A stretch of DNA of 64,000 nt. It comes from Ignavibacteriales bacterium (GTDB lineage: Bacteria; Bacteroidota; Ignavibacteria; UBA10030). The DNA is taken from positions 186,001-250,000 of the forward strand of contig JAPLFQ010000025.1 of the NCBI GenBank assembly GCA_026390595.1, in the 5' to 3' direction. The notes beneath the pieces were generated by a model. The model had not been told where the DNA came from and searched no databases. It saw nothing but the letters and a program-made list of their open reading frames with translations. This document shows, piece by piece, positions 45,423 through 51,585 of this stretch (position 1 is the first letter of the stretch; each line of letters begins with the position of its first letter). The translations under genes were made by a program, and so were the position numbers.

Positions 45423-45616
45423 GATTTCGAACCTCTCCGTTTTCGTCACTCCGCAAAGTGCGATGAATATGATCTGAACAGGAAGACGCAAACAATAACT
45501 GATGATTTTCAGCTGAGATTGCATAGGTCCGACATGTCTCTCTTTGTCGACAAAGGCGGTTTTACGCACGTGTGAGCGTCATGAGAGCTGCAATCTTCGC
45601 GATTTTCGGAGAACCT
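45423..45616. other. Intergenic region, no gene seen
   Basis: AT-richer DNA between the terminator and the promoter/operator of the XRE regulator. No feature supported. Confidence 0.35.
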
Positions 45617-45658
45617 TTGTAATGCCGCCGCTGTTGATGTACACATGAAGTCATGTGT
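45617..45658 (+). promoter_or_regulatory. Promoter with palindromic operator before the XRE regulator
   Basis: TTGTAA (45617-45622), 17 bp, TACACA (45640-45645). Overlapping the -10 is ACACATGA-AG-TCATGTGT (45641-45658), a perfect 8-bp inverted repeat. It lies 43 bases before the regulator start, so autoregulation is a plausible reading. Confidence 0.55.
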
Positions 45659-45700
45659 CGATTTCTGTGAACCGTAGCATCAGTGAGGTGGGGAGCAGCC

Positions 45701-45997
45701 ATGCGCAGCGAACGAACAGTCATGAGGACGATTCAGGCGAGATTCGGTTCTGTGGTCAGGGGTCAAAGGCTCAGCGCCGGGTTGTCCCAGCAAGAACTCG
45801 CTCACCGGTCCGGCCTGCATCGAACGTACGTCACCGACGTCGAGCGGGGAGCGCGTAATCCTTCACTCAACAGCATCAAAAAGCTCTCCGATGCACTTGG
45901 CGTGTCGCTTTCGAGTCTCTTCAATCTTGTCGAAGAACTTGAGCGCCAGGATCGCACTTCCGACCCCGTGTCGGGCGCGAAAAATCCCGGGAAATGA
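45701..45997 (+). CDS. XRE family transcriptional regulator
   Basis: A 98-residue DNA-binding protein. The helix-turn-helix covers about residues 13-70: VVRGQRLSAGLSQQELAHRSGLHRTYVTDVERGARNPSL, the Cro/C1 type. The short tail is polar. ATG at 45701 has GGGGAG five bases upstream; ATG at 45722 and an upstream GTG-type start are less likely. The HRTYVTDVERG sequence is close to controller proteins of restriction-modification systems and small phage regulators, but no such genes are nearby. The palindrome at 45641 is its likely target. Confidence 0.92.
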   Translation: MRSERTVMRTIQARFGSVVRGQRLSAGLSQQELAHRSGLHRTYVTDVERGARNPSLNSIKKLSDALGVSLSSLFNLVEELERQDRTSDPVSGAKNPGK

Positions 45998-46023
45998 TAT
46001 TGTGATTCCCGCCGCTATAGAAA

Positions 46024-46076
46024 GGGGCGACCAGTCGTCGCCCCCGAAACAGGGAACGCATGAAGCCGGCGTTCCC
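46024..46076. terminator. Two tandem hairpins between convergent genes
   Basis: GGGGCGAC-CAGTC-GTCGCCCC (46024-46044) and GGGAACGC-9 bases-GCGTTCCC (46052-46076). They lie between the stops of the XRE regulator and the hybrid kinase. T-tracts are weak, so they are probable rather than certain bidirectional terminators. Confidence 0.55.
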
Positions 46077-46096
46077 GCGCTCCATACATGTCACTC

Positions 46097-48082
46097 CTAT
46101 ATCCTGCTTGCCAGGACTCCTTCGACAGCATCCTGAAGCTCTTTCGACGACACCGGTTTCGTGAGGACCGCTTCGGCTCCGCTCAGAACGAGGCTCTCGC
46201 GTCCGTCCGCTGAATCCTTGCCGGTGATGATGAACACCGGAATGTCCTTTGTCTCGGGATCTTGTTTGACGAGTTTGAGGAACTCGAACCCGTTCATGCC
46301 CGGCATCGAATAATCTGTCACAATGAGGCGGGGGTGATACTTCTTGGCGTAGTCGAACGCCTCGTTGCCGTTTGACGCCTGCACCACCTGCGCGTCCGGG
46401 AACATGCGCTTCAGGTAGCGCGAGTGAAGCACCCGTACCCCCTGATCGTCATCCACAACCAACACCGCCTCGTCCTGAGGCTTCGCAAGTTTGTGGAGCC
46501 GGATCGTGAAGGTGGTCCCGGCGCCGACTTCGCTCTCGACCGTGATCGAGCCGGAATGTTTCTTGATGATCTCGGCGACCAGCGAGAGGCCGAGTCCGGT
46601 TCCTGTCTCGCCGCGCAATCCCACCCTGGTGTACTTTTCCTCGACCTTGAAGAGCCTCTTGAGATCAGCAGCCGGGATCCCGGCCCCCGTGTCCTTTACT
46701 GTGAGTATCCACTCCTCGTCCGCCGACTCCTTGAGATCGATTGAAATCAGCCCGTGCGCTGGCGTGAATTTCAACGCATTGCTGATAAGATTGTTGAAGG
46801 CCTGCGTCAACATCGCCTCGTCTCCCCGGATGCACGTATCGGCTGGGAGGGTCGAGCGGAGAGCGATTTCCTTGTTCATCGCTGTGCCGAGATGAGCCTG
46901 CACGCTGGCCCTGACGACTTTCTGGAGGTCGATATCGCGGATGTCCAGCGTGATGCGGCCGGTTTCCAGCCGTGACCAATCGAGTAGTCTCTTGACCAGC
47001 GCAAGCTGCTGCTGGGCTGAGTTGCGAATGTACGTGAGGAACTCCTTCCGCTCGGCATCGGTGAGCTTTTCGGTATCGTTGAGCAGAATCTCGCAAAATC
47101 CGAGGATGCTTGTGAACGGAGACTGGAGGTCGTGCGAGAGCACCGACATCAGCCGGTCCTTCTGCCGGTTCAGCTGGGTGAGCATCTCGCGTGAATCCTG
47201 CAGTGCAGAGAGATTCTCCTGAACCCGGGCTTCGAGCTCCTTCCGTTCTGTGATGTCTTCGAGGATCCCTTCGATCGAGACCACGTTTCCTGCGGCGTCC
47301 TTGACCGCACGCGAATGCTCCAGTACGATGATCGTTTTCCCGTCCTTGCGCCGCAAGGAGAGCTCGACGTTTGAACATGCTCCCTGTCCGGAAAGCTTCA
47401 TCGTCAGAGAAGCCCGCTCCGCGGGGTTGGTGTATAACTCTTCAAGATTGATCGAGGCGAGTTCTTCGATGGAATCGTACCCCAGCATGCGGAGGAGCGC
47501 TGCATTGGCCGAGAGGAGCTTCCCATCCACGGTGCTTTGAAAAATTCCCTGCACCGCGTTGTTGAACAAATCGTGATACTTACGCTCGCTTTCTTTCAGC
47601 GCTCTTTCGGCGATACGTCTGGTGGTGACGTTGCGGATGATGCTGAACACAAATGTCGAACCATCGGTCCCTTTGATGTAGGAGTTGATCGCCTCAACGA
47701 ATACCTCGTGGTGGTTTCTCAATCGCAGATGCCGGTTCATGACCGGCTCGACGCTGCGATCAAGGAATCGCTTGCTGTAGGTCGCAAGAAGAACCGATGG
47801 ATCAGCAGAAGAATCCAGGATCACAGTGAACGGCTCTCCAACCAGTTCCTCCCGCCGCATTCCCACCATTCTGCAGTAGGAGTCGTTGACCGCGACGATG
47901 ATCCCTGCTGCGTTGGTGATCCTCATCGCCTCGGCGGAATTCTCCCAGACCGATTCCAGGAGGGCTTGCTGGTCGGGCGTATGGACGGCGCCGGTCCTGG
48001 TATGGTTTTCACGGCCGAAGCTGAGAAGCGTCAGCGGCTGTTGATACGGTTGTCTGTTTGGTACCAAAGGTGGAGTTGCCAT
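46097..48082 (-). CDS. Hybrid histidine kinase (PAS-PAS-HisKA-ATPase-receiver)
   Basis: A 661-residue soluble sensor kinase. Two PAS domains (about 45-165 and 170-290, with ESVWENSAEAMRITNAAG and RKYHDLFNNAVQGIFQST) are followed by HisKA with H-box LSHDLQSPF (about residue 315), an ATPase domain (N-box FNNLISNALKF, DTGAGIP, GTGLGLSL), and a receiver with Asp in LIVTDYSMPG and Lys in LTKPVS. ATG at 48082 has AAGGA eight bases upstream; a longer reading frame upstream lacks domain content. No membrane segment, so the signal is cytoplasmic. Its output partner is not in the vicinity. Confidence 0.93.
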   Translation of the reverse strand: MATPPLVPNRQPYQQPLTLLSFGRENHTRTGAVHTPDQQALLESVWENSAEAMRITNAAGIIVAVNDSYCRMVGMRREELVGEPFTVILDSSADPSVLLATYSKRFLDRSVEPVMNRHLRLRNHHEVFVEAINSYIKGTDGSTFVFSIIRNVTTRRIAERALKESERKYHDLFNNAVQGIFQSTVDGKLLSANAALLRMLGYDSIEELASINLEELYTNPAERASLTMKLSGQGACSNVELSLRRKDGKTIIVLEHSRAVKDAAGNVVSIEGILEDITERKELEARVQENLSALQDSREMLTQLNRQKDRLMSVLSHDLQSPFTSILGFCEILLNDTEKLTDAERKEFLTYIRNSAQQQLALVKRLLDWSRLETGRITLDIRDIDLQKVVRASVQAHLGTAMNKEIALRSTLPADTCIRGDEAMLTQAFNNLISNALKFTPAHGLISIDLKESADEEWILTVKDTGAGIPAADLKRLFKVEEKYTRVGLRGETGTGLGLSLVAEIIKKHSGSITVESEVGAGTTFTIRLHKLAKPQDEAVLVVDDDQGVRVLHSRYLKRMFPDAQVVQASNGNEAFDYAKKYHPRLIVTDYSMPGMNGFEFLKLVKQDPETKDIPVFIITGKDSADGRESLVLSGAEAVLTKPVSSKELQDAVEGVLASRI

Positions 48083-48692
48083 ACGATTGATCCTTTCCAG
48101 ATGCGAACGGAAAGGCGCAAACCTGGTGCCATCAAAATCTTGAAGATTTCGATGAGAAAAGCAGATCGGATTGAGCAATGCGTGTAGTTTCTACAATTTC
48201 AGCTGGTCGGGTCCGGGCTTTTTCGAGATTACATTGAGAACGAAAAGGGGGAGCGACATCCAGGGAGGTGGCAGACAATGTTGAGGTTGGCCGCAGACTT
48301 TCGAGATACGCGAGCTTTGCCTCCCGAAAACACATCATGCTCAGCGTGAACTCTCTCATCCTGAGCGGAGGGAGCTTTTTTTGCGACCCCCTCCTTCGTC
48401 GGGGTAAACTCCGTCGAAGAATGCCCCCGATGCAACTTGGATCCATCAAAAAAACATGCGCTACCTTTCAATATTGAAGTCCTACCTCGAACCCCCATGC
48501 CTTATCCGATAATGTAGATTTTACATTTCCCGTCTCATTGTGGCACCGTCATCAATTCCGCTTCCGGCATTCTTACTCATTGTATTTCATCGTTTTACAA
48601 GGACGTTGTTGCGGGCGATCATCTTCGTGAGTCATTGGCACTCGCAATGCACAACTCCGGGCAAGACACCAAAACAGGAATAGGAGAGTACC
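48083..48692. other. Divergent intergenic region of 610 bases
   Basis: No convincing gene. It holds a small palindrome TGTAG-TTT-CTACA (48183-48195), and a run of seven T (48376-48382) preceded by GC-rich inverted bases (GCTCAG at 48339-48344, CTGAGC at 48361-48366) that could end a short plus-strand RNA. ATGTA-GATTT-TACAT lies near 48514-48528. The length suggests control signals for both flanking genes, but none is clear. Confidence 0.4.
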
Positions 48693-49463
48693 ATGCTCGG
48701 ACGCAGAAGAAATGAAAATTGGATTACGGCTCTGGCAGCACTGGCGGTGATGCTTCAATCACAGGCAGCGGTCGCTGACAACAGGCTTGTCCTCAGGAAA
48801 GAATCGGACAATCTCATTGCGGTGGAGCTGTCGAACACCGACGCCGTTGCGGGTTTCCAGTTTTCTGTCAACGGGCGTGGAGGAGTCACATTTGGAGAGT
48901 ATCAGGGAAGCGAACGGACCTCTGAGGCGAGCCTGGGTATTTATCAGTACCTCAAGGATGATTCGACACTGAATATCGTCATCCTTGCCCCGGTGCGCTC
49001 GGCTCTGCCGGTCGGTAACGGCGTGATCGGAAAGATCTTCTTCGCGCTGACGAAGAACGCCGGAGCCGATACCGCCCGCGTGTTCCTCAGCAAGGTTGTT
49101 CTGTGTACCGCGCAGGCGCAATATCTCGATGTCACCGCAACGCAGGTCGAATGGAATCTGCATGCGAAGGTGGATTCAAAGCAGATGAATTTTGCGCTTA
49201 ACCAGAACTACCCGAATCCGTTCAATCCCTCCACCACGATTTCATACCGGCTTGACAAACCAGCGCAGGTGCGGTTAGCGGTCTATGATATCACAGGTCG
49301 ACAGGTCGAAAGTCTGGTTGATCAGCATCAGCTGGAGGGGCAGTACACAGTGAAATGGAATGCATCTGTCCACGCGGCGTCCCAGCTTGCCTCGGGAATG
49401 TATTTTGCCAGATTGCAGGTAGGCGATCAGGTCGCAGTTCAAAAAATGATCCTTGCAAAGTAA
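48693..49463 (+). CDS. Short T9SS-sorted protein with cohesin-like domain
   Basis: A 256-residue exported protein. A signal peptide (to about residue 29) is followed by a beta-sandwich (30-150) with VAVELSNTDAVAGFQFSVN and VIGKIFFAL, a pattern like cohesin or dockerin-partner sandwiches. A T9SS sorting domain starts near residue 167 (FALNQNYPNPFNP, YDITGRQV, SGMYFARL, KMILAK). AGGAG lies 8 bases before the ATG. It is followed 19 bases later by the integrase-derived gene. Likely a surface or secreted structural protein. Confidence 0.85.
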   Translation: MLGRRRNENWITALAALAVMLQSQAAVADNRLVLRKESDNLIAVELSNTDAVAGFQFSVNGRGGVTFGEYQGSERTSEASLGIYQYLKDDSTLNIVILAPVRSALPVGNGVIGKIFFALTKNAGADTARVFLSKVVLCTAQAQYLDVTATQVEWNLHAKVDSKQMNFALNQNYPNPFNPSTTISYRLDKPAQVRLAVYDITGRQVESLVDQHQLEGQYTVKWNASVHAASQLASGMYFARLQVGDQVAVQKMILAK

Positions 49464-49482
49464 CGACTGAAGGAACAGCGCG

Positions 49483-50172
49483 ATGGCCGCACAGCATGTG
49501 CTTCTCAATCCGGATTCATGGAATCTCCAGGCGCTCCTCGAAGTTGACACGCTCCCGAGAGACCTTTCGCACCATGGGCTTCTGTATCTTGAGAAACTCG
49601 CGCTCGCAATCGACGAAGTGGCTCCGAAGCCCGGCCTTCTTGTCTATGTCGCCGCAACGATATTGGACCAGCCGATCAACGGCCTTGACGCTGTGCTCTT
49701 TTCCGCAATTGATGTGTGCACACACCTTCAGGTGGCGCAAGTGTATCACTCTCTGACCACAGCTGCTGCGGTCTCGTTTGTCGAATTTGTCGCGGAGAGT
49801 TTTCCCCTCCCGATTTCACAAATCAGGACGCTGGCTGAGCCCCCGTTTCATGATGGCTCAAATCAGGCTTCCAAAAGGAATTTCTCAGTCCTGATTGGCA
49901 GGCAGGGATTTGTTCACTCCCCCATAGCCGATCCTTCGCGGGACGCACTCTTGTCAATTACGGCGAAGGTTCATTTCAAGAGCCTCGCTGGCAAGGGCCT
50001 GGTGCGTGCTTCATCGCATGACCTGCAGAGAGAAGTGGGACAGTTCCTGCTCTTCCACAACAACTATCGAACGATCCCGTGGCTTGGCGGCAAAACCCCG
50101 CTCCAACGCCTGAAGTTTTTTGAAGGATTTGGCAGCATTCATTCCTTTAGCCCGAACGACGGGCAGGAATAG
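49483..50172 (+). CDS. Integrase-core-derived protein, probably catalytically dead (IS481-like)
   Basis: A 229-residue protein related to the DDE integrase core of IS481/IS3-type transposases. FSAIDVCTHLQVAQVY (about residues 73-88) matches the first catalytic Asp block, and FHNNYRTIPWLGGKTPLQRL (191-210) matches the conserved YNNYRPH..LGGKTP tail. The second block, normally TDxGxEF, reads TLAEPPF (116-122), so its Asp is gone. The third, normally NGKxERxH, is replaced around 155-165, so its Glu is gone. The N-terminal helix-turn-helix is absent. The frame is intact, with AAGGA before the ATG and no terminal inverted repeats nearby. This fits a domesticated gene better than a fresh relic. Confidence 0.7.
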   Translation: MAAQHVLLNPDSWNLQALLEVDTLPRDLSHHGLLYLEKLALAIDEVAPKPGLLVYVAATILDQPINGLDAVLFSAIDVCTHLQVAQVYHSLTTAAAVSFVEFVAESFPLPISQIRTLAEPPFHDGSNQASKRNFSVLIGRQGFVHSPIADPSRDALLSITAKVHFKSLAGKGLVRASSHDLQREVGQFLLFHNNYRTIPWLGGKTPLQRLKFFEGFGSIHSFSPNDGQE

Positions 50173-50280
50173 CATCCTCGCCCTGCGGTATTTGGACGAG
50201 CTGAGAGCTTGTGACGCTGACTTCGTTCCAATGCCCGGCACAGATGCTGAAAGTCTTTGTCTCGAAGCCGGAGGTACCCT

Positions 50281-51378
50281 ATGAAACGAATATTAATTGT
50301 TGATGATGAACCCTCGTACCGCGAGACGATCGGCAGCGTGCTCCGGCAGTCGGGATATCTCGTCTGCGAGGCGGAGGACGGAGACAAGGCCATTGACCTT
50401 GCGCAGAGCGCTCAGCCCGACGTTATTATCTCCGACGTGATGATGGAGCGCCTCGACGGATTCGGCCTCCTTGGCCGGTTGCGGATGGACCCGACAACAA
50501 GTATGATCCCGTTCATTTTCACCACGGGGCTGTCCGACAAGGATTCGATGCGAAAGGGGATGTCCCTGGGTGCGGACGATTTCCTCGTGAAGCCCTTCAG
50601 CAGCGCAGAACTCCTCTCCGCAATCGACACGCGCCTTGCGATGCGCGACGAACTCAGGCAGGAAGTGGAGAAGAGACTTTCGCAGCTTCGCTCGTGCATT
50701 TCGCTCGCGCTGCCGCATGAGATCAGAACACCGCTTGCAAGTATCATAGGGTTTGCCGACGTCCTCGCCGATGAAGCGTCCGTGCTCTCGTACGAGGAAG
50801 TCATGGAGAGCGGAAAGCTCGTGAAGAAGGCGGGCATGCGTCTCCGGCATCTTCTCGAAAACTTCATGGTCTATTCGCAGATCGAGATAGTCGCCACCGA
50901 CCCGGAGCGGCTTGCGGCGTTTAAGCGGGCGCAATTGCCCCACACGTCTGACCTCATCGAAGAGCTCAGCCGCATCAAGGCGGATTCCTGGGGGCGCTCA
51001 TCTGATCTGGTACTCGACCTTTCCCCCTGTCCAGCCGCCATATCCCAATTGTATCTGAAGAAAATTGGCGACGAACTCGTTGACAACGCGTTCAAATTCT
51101 CCGAAATAGGTACACGGGTGGAGGTTCGAGCCTGCCGTGAAGGGAATTCATTCGTCCTCTCCGTTGCTGATTCAGGCCGCGGCATGAACCGTGAACAGGT
51201 GGCAAGCCTGGGGGCGTACGTCCAGTTTGAAAGGGCGTACCATGAGCAGCAGGGAACGGGACTGGGATTGTCCATCGCCAAGCGATTGACGGAGATGCAT
51301 GGGGGGAAGATGGAATTCGAAGCGAATTTCGGTGCAGGATTGATCGTACGCGCGATCATCCCGCTGCCACCGGAGTGA
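50281..51378 (+). CDS. Response regulator-histidine kinase fusion (receiver first)
   Basis: A 365-residue cytoplasmic signalling protein. An N-terminal receiver (1-120) has Asp-Asp near 10-11, acceptor Asp in VIISDVMM (about 52) and Lys in VKPFS. It is followed by HisKA with H-box LPHEIRTPLASI (about 146) and an ATPase domain (GDELVDNAFKFSE, DSGRGM, GTGLGLSIAKRL). GGAGG lies 9 bases before the ATG. The receiver-then-kinase order suggests control of the kinase by an upstream phosphorelay. Together with 46097 and 31706 this makes three kinase-receiver hybrids in 20 kb. Confidence 0.93.
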   Translation: MKRILIVDDEPSYRETIGSVLRQSGYLVCEAEDGDKAIDLAQSAQPDVIISDVMMERLDGFGLLGRLRMDPTTSMIPFIFTTGLSDKDSMRKGMSLGADDFLVKPFSSAELLSAIDTRLAMRDELRQEVEKRLSQLRSCISLALPHEIRTPLASIIGFADVLADEASVLSYEEVMESGKLVKKAGMRLRHLLENFMVYSQIEIVATDPERLAAFKRAQLPHTSDLIEELSRIKADSWGRSSDLVLDLSPCPAAISQLYLKKIGDELVDNAFKFSEIGTRVEVRACREGNSFVLSVADSGRGMNREQVASLGAYVQFERAYHEQQGTGLGLSIAKRLTEMHGGKMEFEANFGAGLIVRAIIPLPPE

Positions 51379-51585
51379 CGGGATGATCGGGTTTGTCACA
51401 TTGGATCACAAGTAATCGCTGCCGCTCCACTTTCTCTGAATACTCCGCTCTATCCTTTTGTTCAGCTCGTCTACGCCCGTGTCAACAATGAAACGTGTGA
51501 CGATCTGAGAAAACAAATCCACCTCTTGTAGTTGAAGATATTTATCATAAACTTTCAACTACTGAACAACCACGCACCGGACCAT

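Follow-up and report, generated by a model that had tools for sequence, protein, structure and literature searches.

Protein X, encoded at positions 49,483 to 50,172 of the window, has most likely lost the ability to cut or join DNA. It probably belongs to an old protein family that arose from a transposase of the IS481 type. This protein family would have lost the DDE triad before families f1, f2 and f5 diverged and would serve the host in a role without DNA cutting. We are confident that this dead transposase has been retained for a host role. The case is read from sequence comparisons: homology to IS481, loss of the triad, descent as one clade, conserved synteny, purifying selection on the clade, absence of the helix-turn-helix (HTH) in f1 and repetition of a gene cassette. 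The window is the whole stretch of DNA that was analysed (64,000 nucleotides, G000:C25:186001-250000). The genome that contains it comprises 36 contigs with a total of 4.77 Mb. Family f1 is the window's own family, and f1 to f6 are families of its order.

Protein X is derived from an IS481 transposase

The gene was defined from the ORF list, NCBIfam, the tree, the triad alignment and hhalign:

49483..50172, + strand: protein X, catalytically dead IS481-derived protein, 229 aa

The frame is open exactly over 49483-50172, and AAGGA is located ahead of the ATG. The start is 19 bases past the stop of a T9SS-sorted ORF (48693-49463). No terminal inverted repeats were found in 49300-50400 (ungapped search, minimum 10). 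An earlier reading of this DNA, made from the sequence only, had claimed an intact frame with a good ribosome site, the 19-base gap after a T9SS protein, the absence of inverted repeats and an IS481-like origin. All four claims were borne out. The window genome also encodes three paralogues of X with open frames (50, 44 and 40% identity), and the ORF is therefore not a chance one.

X matches the NCBIfam IS481 transposase family (NF033577) with an E-value of 7.1e-7. The score of 29 bits is below the curated cut-off of 224 bits. No Pfam match was found at E<=10. A profile of 10 f1 proteins was aligned to four DDE-intact proteins with an hhalign probability of 98.6 and an E-value of 6.7e-16, which refers to a single comparison. 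The alignment covers residues 19-214. Together with a tree in which the sister is DDE-intact IS481, this identifies X as IS481-derived by homology. X shares with IS481 this homologous core, the AID...T block and the NN..R....L.G.TP.Q.L tail. It differs in having no DDE triad, no inverted repeats and, as in the rest of f1, no HTH.

Other databases were less informative. A family profile search of the PDB found no chain at E<=1, and PADLOC gave nothing for X. Two HTH-less proteins scanned against PHROGs had no match; an HTH-bearing relative matched 11 families, with transposases at the top. An AlphaFold2 model of the window protein with L005 as input had a pLDDT of 31.9 and a pTM of 0.30.

All three catalytic acids are lost

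According to PMC10045372, DDD/E transposases carry three catalytic residues on an RNase H fold, and in IS481 and related groups the first catalytic D is found 100 to 300 residues into the protein. We took the register of the triad from the DDE-intact protein L087, where the motifs are VQVDVK, RTDHGHEF and GKVERSH. Alignments place the following codons of X:

49651..49653, + strand: codon 57 (Ala), column of the first catalytic Asp (D1)
49711..49713, + strand: codon 77, the conserved Asp in the SAID block, which is not part of the catalytic triad
49831..49833, + strand: codon 117 (Leu), column of the second catalytic Asp (D2)
49954..49956, + strand: codon 158 (Ser), aligned with the catalytic Glu in two alignment modes, with a gap in the third

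None of the three catalytic acids is left in X. The D1 column is occupied by Ala57, and Leu117 aligns with the D of RTDHGHEF. The Glu column is occupied by Ser158 in two MAFFT modes and by a gap in the third, and is located near a gap in the hhalign alignment. The Leu in place of the second Asp and the missing third Glu agree with what the sequence-only reading had described. It had also described a retained first Asp block, which is incorrect: SAIDVCTHLQVA does not contain the catalytic first Asp. Asp77 in SAIDVCTHLQVA is an extra conserved Asp, present in the DDE-intact controls besides their triad and in 18/18 f1 proteins, and the earlier reading therefore undercounted the loss of acids. 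The claim of an integrase core without its catalytic acids holds more strongly than it was stated.

The loss extends to the whole clade. Among its 33 members, D1 is kept in 5, D2 in 1 and the Glu in 7. No member has two of the three acids and none has the full DDE triad of a functional IS481 transposase (0/33 in each case, three alignment modes). The 33 include L073, a fragment without the D1 column. Nine of the 10 DDE controls score DDE; the tenth, the IS3-like L032, is probably misaligned at D1.

The core and the C-terminal segment are conserved in f1, with 44 columns conserved in at least 15 of the 18 rows. Residues H145, H192-N194, R196 and G203-P206 are candidates for a conserved surface of the predicted core. 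The columns of Ala57 and Leu117 are variable, and any one residue occupies at most 5 rows of either. The pattern does not extend to the Glu column, which is not free and has Ser in 12/18. Two residues past the D2 column, an Asp is present in all 12 aligned f5 rows and in the f10 row. The f5 motifs around this Asp are TPLDxxF and TKxDTVF.

The dead proteins form one clade

The tree contains 43 rows, the 33 clade members (18 f1, 12 f5, 2 f2 and 1 f10) and 10 controls. Fragments L108 (G047), L109 (G037) and L086 (G016), the partial DDE-type L104 and L106, and L099 (G282) were omitted from the tree and the triad count, and seven further f5 copies were left unaligned. The 33 dead proteins form one clade (support 100/98) beside DDE-intact IS481. 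The support is 99/95 for the clade with its DDE-intact sisters, 98/93 for the sisters and 100/99 for f1. The sister L087 scores 231 bits, over the NCBIfam IS481 cut-off of 224. The f5 proteins are not one group, as the f10 row is located inside f5 and three copies from G049 stand apart. The window protein groups with the cassette copies of its genus (97/88, seven rows). A long-branch warning applies to nine rows, of which six are controls and three are clade members (L085, L081 and L072); it does not concern the window row.

Triad-less relatives are found in the genus, in the family and in two more families of the order. With the protein as query, 22 of the 61 related genomes searched gave a match at E<=0.001, fragments included. 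A search of the class with alignment A1 gave matches in 33/294 genomes at E<=1e-5. These include DDE-type proteins in G048, G088, G118, G146 and G168 and weak matches in G093, G269 and G276. The same search of the phylum gave matches in 25/345 genomes, those outside the class at less than 70 bits; three of the latter (L122-L124) were inspected and have an Asp at the D2 position. The clade is present in 18/22 f5 genomes (E<=1e-20) and 14/32 f1 genomes (E<=1e-10), including 6/6 of the window's genus, and no match was found in the other 4 and 18. Families f3, f4 and f6 have no clade member among the sampled genomes, and the f3 genome G048 holds a DDE-intact relative. No tblastn match at E<=1e-3 was found in 72,556 plasmids and 50,697 phages. 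The entry DMMN01000315.1 (Bacteroidetes bacterium isolate UBA10030) is the same sequence as the G021 locus.

Several copies look partial or broken, namely L086 (G016), L109 (G037), L108 (G047) and L030, the second copy in G045. The X gene may therefore have been lost in some lineages. Two DDE-type IS481 copies, L103 (G118) and L104 (G168), have broken frames and are decaying elements, in contrast to the dead but open clade. L089 (G224, another family of the same class) is 86% identical to L022/L091 of G040, a genome of another order, and is located near the same Fe-S gene. This likeness reflects either a transferred block or an error in contig assignment. No close orthologue of the window copy was found, the best relatives being 48-50% identical.

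The HTH is absent in f1

HTH-bearing members of the clade (f5, f2 and f10; 15 aligned) have 312-363 residues. The three of them that were scanned, from f5 and f2, match Pfam HTH_23, HTH_28 and HTH_32. We built an HTH profile from the N-termini of the HTH-bearing relatives. The profile picks up the DDE-type L087 and L104. Neither the 18 f1 proteins nor the 19 f1 loci, translated in six frames, give a match at E<=1. By this profile and Pfam, X has neither the N-terminal HTH of an IS481 transposase nor the recognisable DNA-binding domain of a transcription regulator, which the three f5/f2 relatives have. We infer that the triad was lost first with the HTH retained, and that the HTH was lost later in f1.

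The sequence-only reading had suggested DNA binding as a new role. This fits the relatives that keep the HTH. It is less apt for X, and the missing HTH in f1 weakens it. The net charge is +12 to +30 in HTH-bearing members, except L107 at +4, and -8 to +6 in f1. X has a net charge of -4 and a pI of 6.2. When cores alone are compared, X is at +2 with a pI of 8.9, and the DDE-type controls are at -4 to +10. Because several DDE-intact control cores are as little basic as that of X, charge alone decides nothing on DNA binding, and we give the charge argument against it little weight.

Inhibition by dead relatives of transposases is known, and X might likewise poison active IS481 or IS3 transposases as a dead subunit, through mixed multimers or by binding their ends. 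Conservation of the core and the C-terminal segment is consistent with such a role, and the window genome has IS3/IS481-like matches below the cut-off. However, it has no IS481 match over the family cut-off, and the lack of an HTH in f1 proteins also speaks against inhibition. Nor would an inhibitor be expected to be linked to tilS or to signalling and T9SS genes. We consider this role unlikely.

The genes are located at conserved addresses

Synteny was analysed by clustering the ORFs of 41 regions, plus L005. Two addresses recur in the clade. In f1, tilS is among the next three ORFs (at least 80 aa) downstream of X at 9/19 loci (L075, L077, L080, L082-L086 and L005), with hpt and ftsH after tilS in most. 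The same holds for 2/13 f5 loci (L092 and L098), and the tilS address is thus found in two families. L072 is located about 5 kb from tilS. At several f1 loci, moeA, moaD and moaE are on the other side of X. The second address is a heterodisulfide-reductase-type Fe-S gene. It adjoins X, or is separated from it by one small ORF, at 8/13 f5 loci and at L089 (f10), and slightly overlaps X at L090 and L097. Other addresses are found at L071, L081 (moeA side only), L093-L095 and the f2 loci.

We searched thirteen related genomes without X for tilS and compared 12 tilS regions. In 10/12, tilS is accompanied by hpt, ftsH or both, with other genes upstream. The exceptions are L153, where the tilS frame was not recognised, and L158, where tilS is alone.

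Vertical retention at conserved loci, those of tilS and the Fe-S gene, is thus seen for the clade and not seen for the window copy itself. Orthologues at the same place, which the earlier reading had asked for, exist for many members of the clade; the cassette site of the window copy is empty in one genome of the comparison (G004), and its nearest paralogues are elsewhere or on contigs that end first. A T9SS-cluster gene is located directly upstream of X on the same strand at six loci of the genus, at one f5 locus and at three f2 loci, of which L088 is assigned by cluster only. We do not claim a tie to T9SS genes across the clade. These may be few independent events, and the motif is found in 19/357 ORFs (at least 100 aa, 41 regions).

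X is part of a repeated signalling cassette in its genus

In the window, X is surrounded by the following features:

45495..51525, no strand: block of about 6 kb (five genes, 45683-51378), missing in G004 (blastn of L165 against the window)
45683..45997, + strand: small HTH_3 (Xre/Cro-type) regulator inside the inserted block (HTH_3, E 6.8e-16)
46097..48178, - strand: PAS-histidine kinase-receiver hybrid, 693 aa, divergent, cassette member (domain matches)
48693..49463, + strand: T9SS-sorted secreted protein, 256 aa, cassette member, directly upstream of X (Por_Secre_tail, E 1.6e-9; TIGR04183, E 1.2e-11; conserved upstream in the genus)
50257..51378, + strand: response regulator-histidine kinase hybrid, 373 aa, cassette member, downstream of X (Response_reg, HisKA, HATPase_c)

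The order sensor kinase, T9SS-sorted protein, X and regulator-kinase is found at seven loci of the genus: the window, L070, L073 (in part), L074, L076, L078 and L079. The window genome has two cassettes and a third copy of X. The gene that comes after its third paralogue, L003, encodes a response regulator with 41-45% identity to the cassette receivers. The four cassette genes group alike. L074 goes with L076, and L070 with L078, L079 and, where present, L073; the window stands apart. These groupings are taken from identity tables, not trees, with the divergent kinase in five loci and the T9SS protein in six. Compared to the other cassettes, the window is 54-57% identical in the receiver-kinase, 59-63% in the divergent kinase, 44-59% in the T9SS protein and 42-47% in X. 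The HTH_3 gene has no tblastn match in seven other regions of the genus (the six other cassette loci and L071). What we take to be a REP-associated tyrosine transposase-like protein is encoded next to the cassette at L070:1900-2475 and L078:298-873, in two genomes of the genus.

In G004, a permease gene (94% identical) adjoins a fadD-like gene (83%), and 24 bases replace window positions 45495-51525. The G004 site would be either an empty site or the product of a deletion. Comparison by eye with L165 of G004 revealed no clear target duplication at the edges of 45495-51525. In G003, a cassette-end gene (c11) is located upstream of fadD at a contig start, which hints at the same address as that of the window cassette and does not prove it.

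X could be mainly a passenger or accessory of this duplicating cassette and owe its spread in the genus to it. The window cassette is present or absent as one block of about 6 kb, its genes share their grouping by identity, and the window genome has the two cassettes and the third copy followed by a response regulator. On the other hand, the clade is also found at conserved loci free of the cassette, in other genera and families. Purifying selection is not expected of a passenger either, and the cassette copies L070, L074, L076, L078 and L079 have NG86 omega values of 0.18-0.28. This makes a mere passenger improbable.

The clade is under purifying selection

The sequence-only reading had proposed dN/dS as a check. 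We estimated omega with NG86 and YN00 for twenty pairs, 14 without the window protein and six with it. In 12 of the 14 non-window pairs, NG86 omega is finite, at 0.065-0.275. YN00 omega is as high as 0.505 (pair L073-L078). Two of the six window pairs are finite (0.210 and 0.219) and the rest are saturated, the window copy being too diverged for a firm omega. Between the window and six relatives, 65-72% of third codon positions differ, compared to 38-44% of first and 27-36% of second positions. The substitution patterns indicate that the dead clade is under purifying selection. The clade thus combines intact frames with purifying selection, as a domesticated gene would, and X shows neither the broken frame nor the relaxed selection of a pseudogene, although for the window copy omega is based on the two finite pairs.

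The domestication proposed by the sequence-only reading is supported by the triad-less relatives, the 33 open frames, the conserved positions and omega well below 1. That reading had also said that missing orthologues, or frames broken in relatives, would mark X as a decaying transposase. This was found in part, as 18/32 f1 genomes have no copy and those in G016, G037 and G047 are partial or broken. X could accordingly be a dead insertion sequence whose frame is open by luck, since it has neither DDE triad nor inverted repeats, and in a neutral simulation 17-24% of frames were still open after 0.1 changes per site. At 0.5 changes per site, however, 0.15-0.75% were open, and the window copy has third positions as diverged as given above. 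Luck would also have to account for a whole aligned clade that is triad-less yet keeps open frames, conserved addresses and low omega. For the clade, decay is largely refuted, and for X we regard it as very improbable. It is hardly credible that X is still a nuclease or transposase acting through other acids, such as an Asp or Glu two residues past the lost D2 or the f5 Glu, since the f5 and f10 Asp and the D1 or Glu kept in a few members stand against a clade in which no member has two of the three acids and X has none.

A model for the taming of an IS481 transposase

We rank decay, inhibition, an active nuclease and a passenger below a domesticated, non-catalytic role, which we regard as probable. 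More tentatively, we put forward a two-step reading. X would belong to a regulator family, present in at least three families, that first lost the triad but not the HTH; in f1 the HTH would then have been shed and the core would have become a protein-protein signalling part, repeated with a T9SS protein and hybrid two-component proteins. An IS481-type transposase would have lost its DDE triad before f1, f2 and f5 split. The first domesticated form may have been a DNA-binding regulator, because relatives keep the HTH. In f1, the HTH-less RNase H-like core would work through protein contacts, and its partners would most likely be the two-component and T9SS members of its cassette. In the genus, X may share a transcript with the genes for the secreted protein and the regulator-kinase, and act as an adaptor or regulator in a circuit of signalling and secretion. 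Such a role in the cassette circuit is possible, and we hold it with some doubt. The molecular function of X would be that of a non-catalytic regulator or adaptor, and any more defined function is suggested by its gene neighbours only. The new cellular role proposed by the earlier reading is thus supported as to domestication, and its DNA binding fits X less well.

In eukaryotes, the retention of dead transposases as host genes is well documented. To our knowledge, few such cases exist in bacteria, and those that we know of come from TnpB or tyrosine enzymes. Among the open-licence PMC papers listed by our searches, none reported an IS481 family that is catalytically dead and retained in bacteria. 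One related case is TldR, which presumably originated from nuclease-dead TnpB. TldR proteins are TnpB-related RNA-guided regulators of bacteria, phage-encoded in the cases described in PMC13418256. Like TldR, X would be a bacterial mobile-element protein that lost its chemistry and was put to use as a regulator. Unlike TldR, which comes from an RNA-guided nuclease, X comes from a DDE transposase, has no known RNA part and, in its window form, has no HTH. REP-associated tyrosine transposases (RAYT) are vertically kept in bacteria, retain their catalytic tyrosine and act on REP sequences. X is likewise a vertically kept relative of transposases in bacteria, but without catalytic residues. In Arabidopsis, ALP1 and ALP2 belong to what we take to be the Harbinger superfamily of transposons. 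They are domesticated transposases tied to PRC2, as stated in PMC7282668. As proposed for X, transposition was lost and the transposase became a regulatory partner protein; ALP1 and ALP2 are eukaryotic and of another transposase superfamily than X.

The intermediates of this history appear to survive side by side: a DDE-intact sister, dead proteins with the HTH, dead proteins without it and the copies in the signalling cassette. The order of the steps by which a bacterial transposase was tamed is therefore directly testable in this family.
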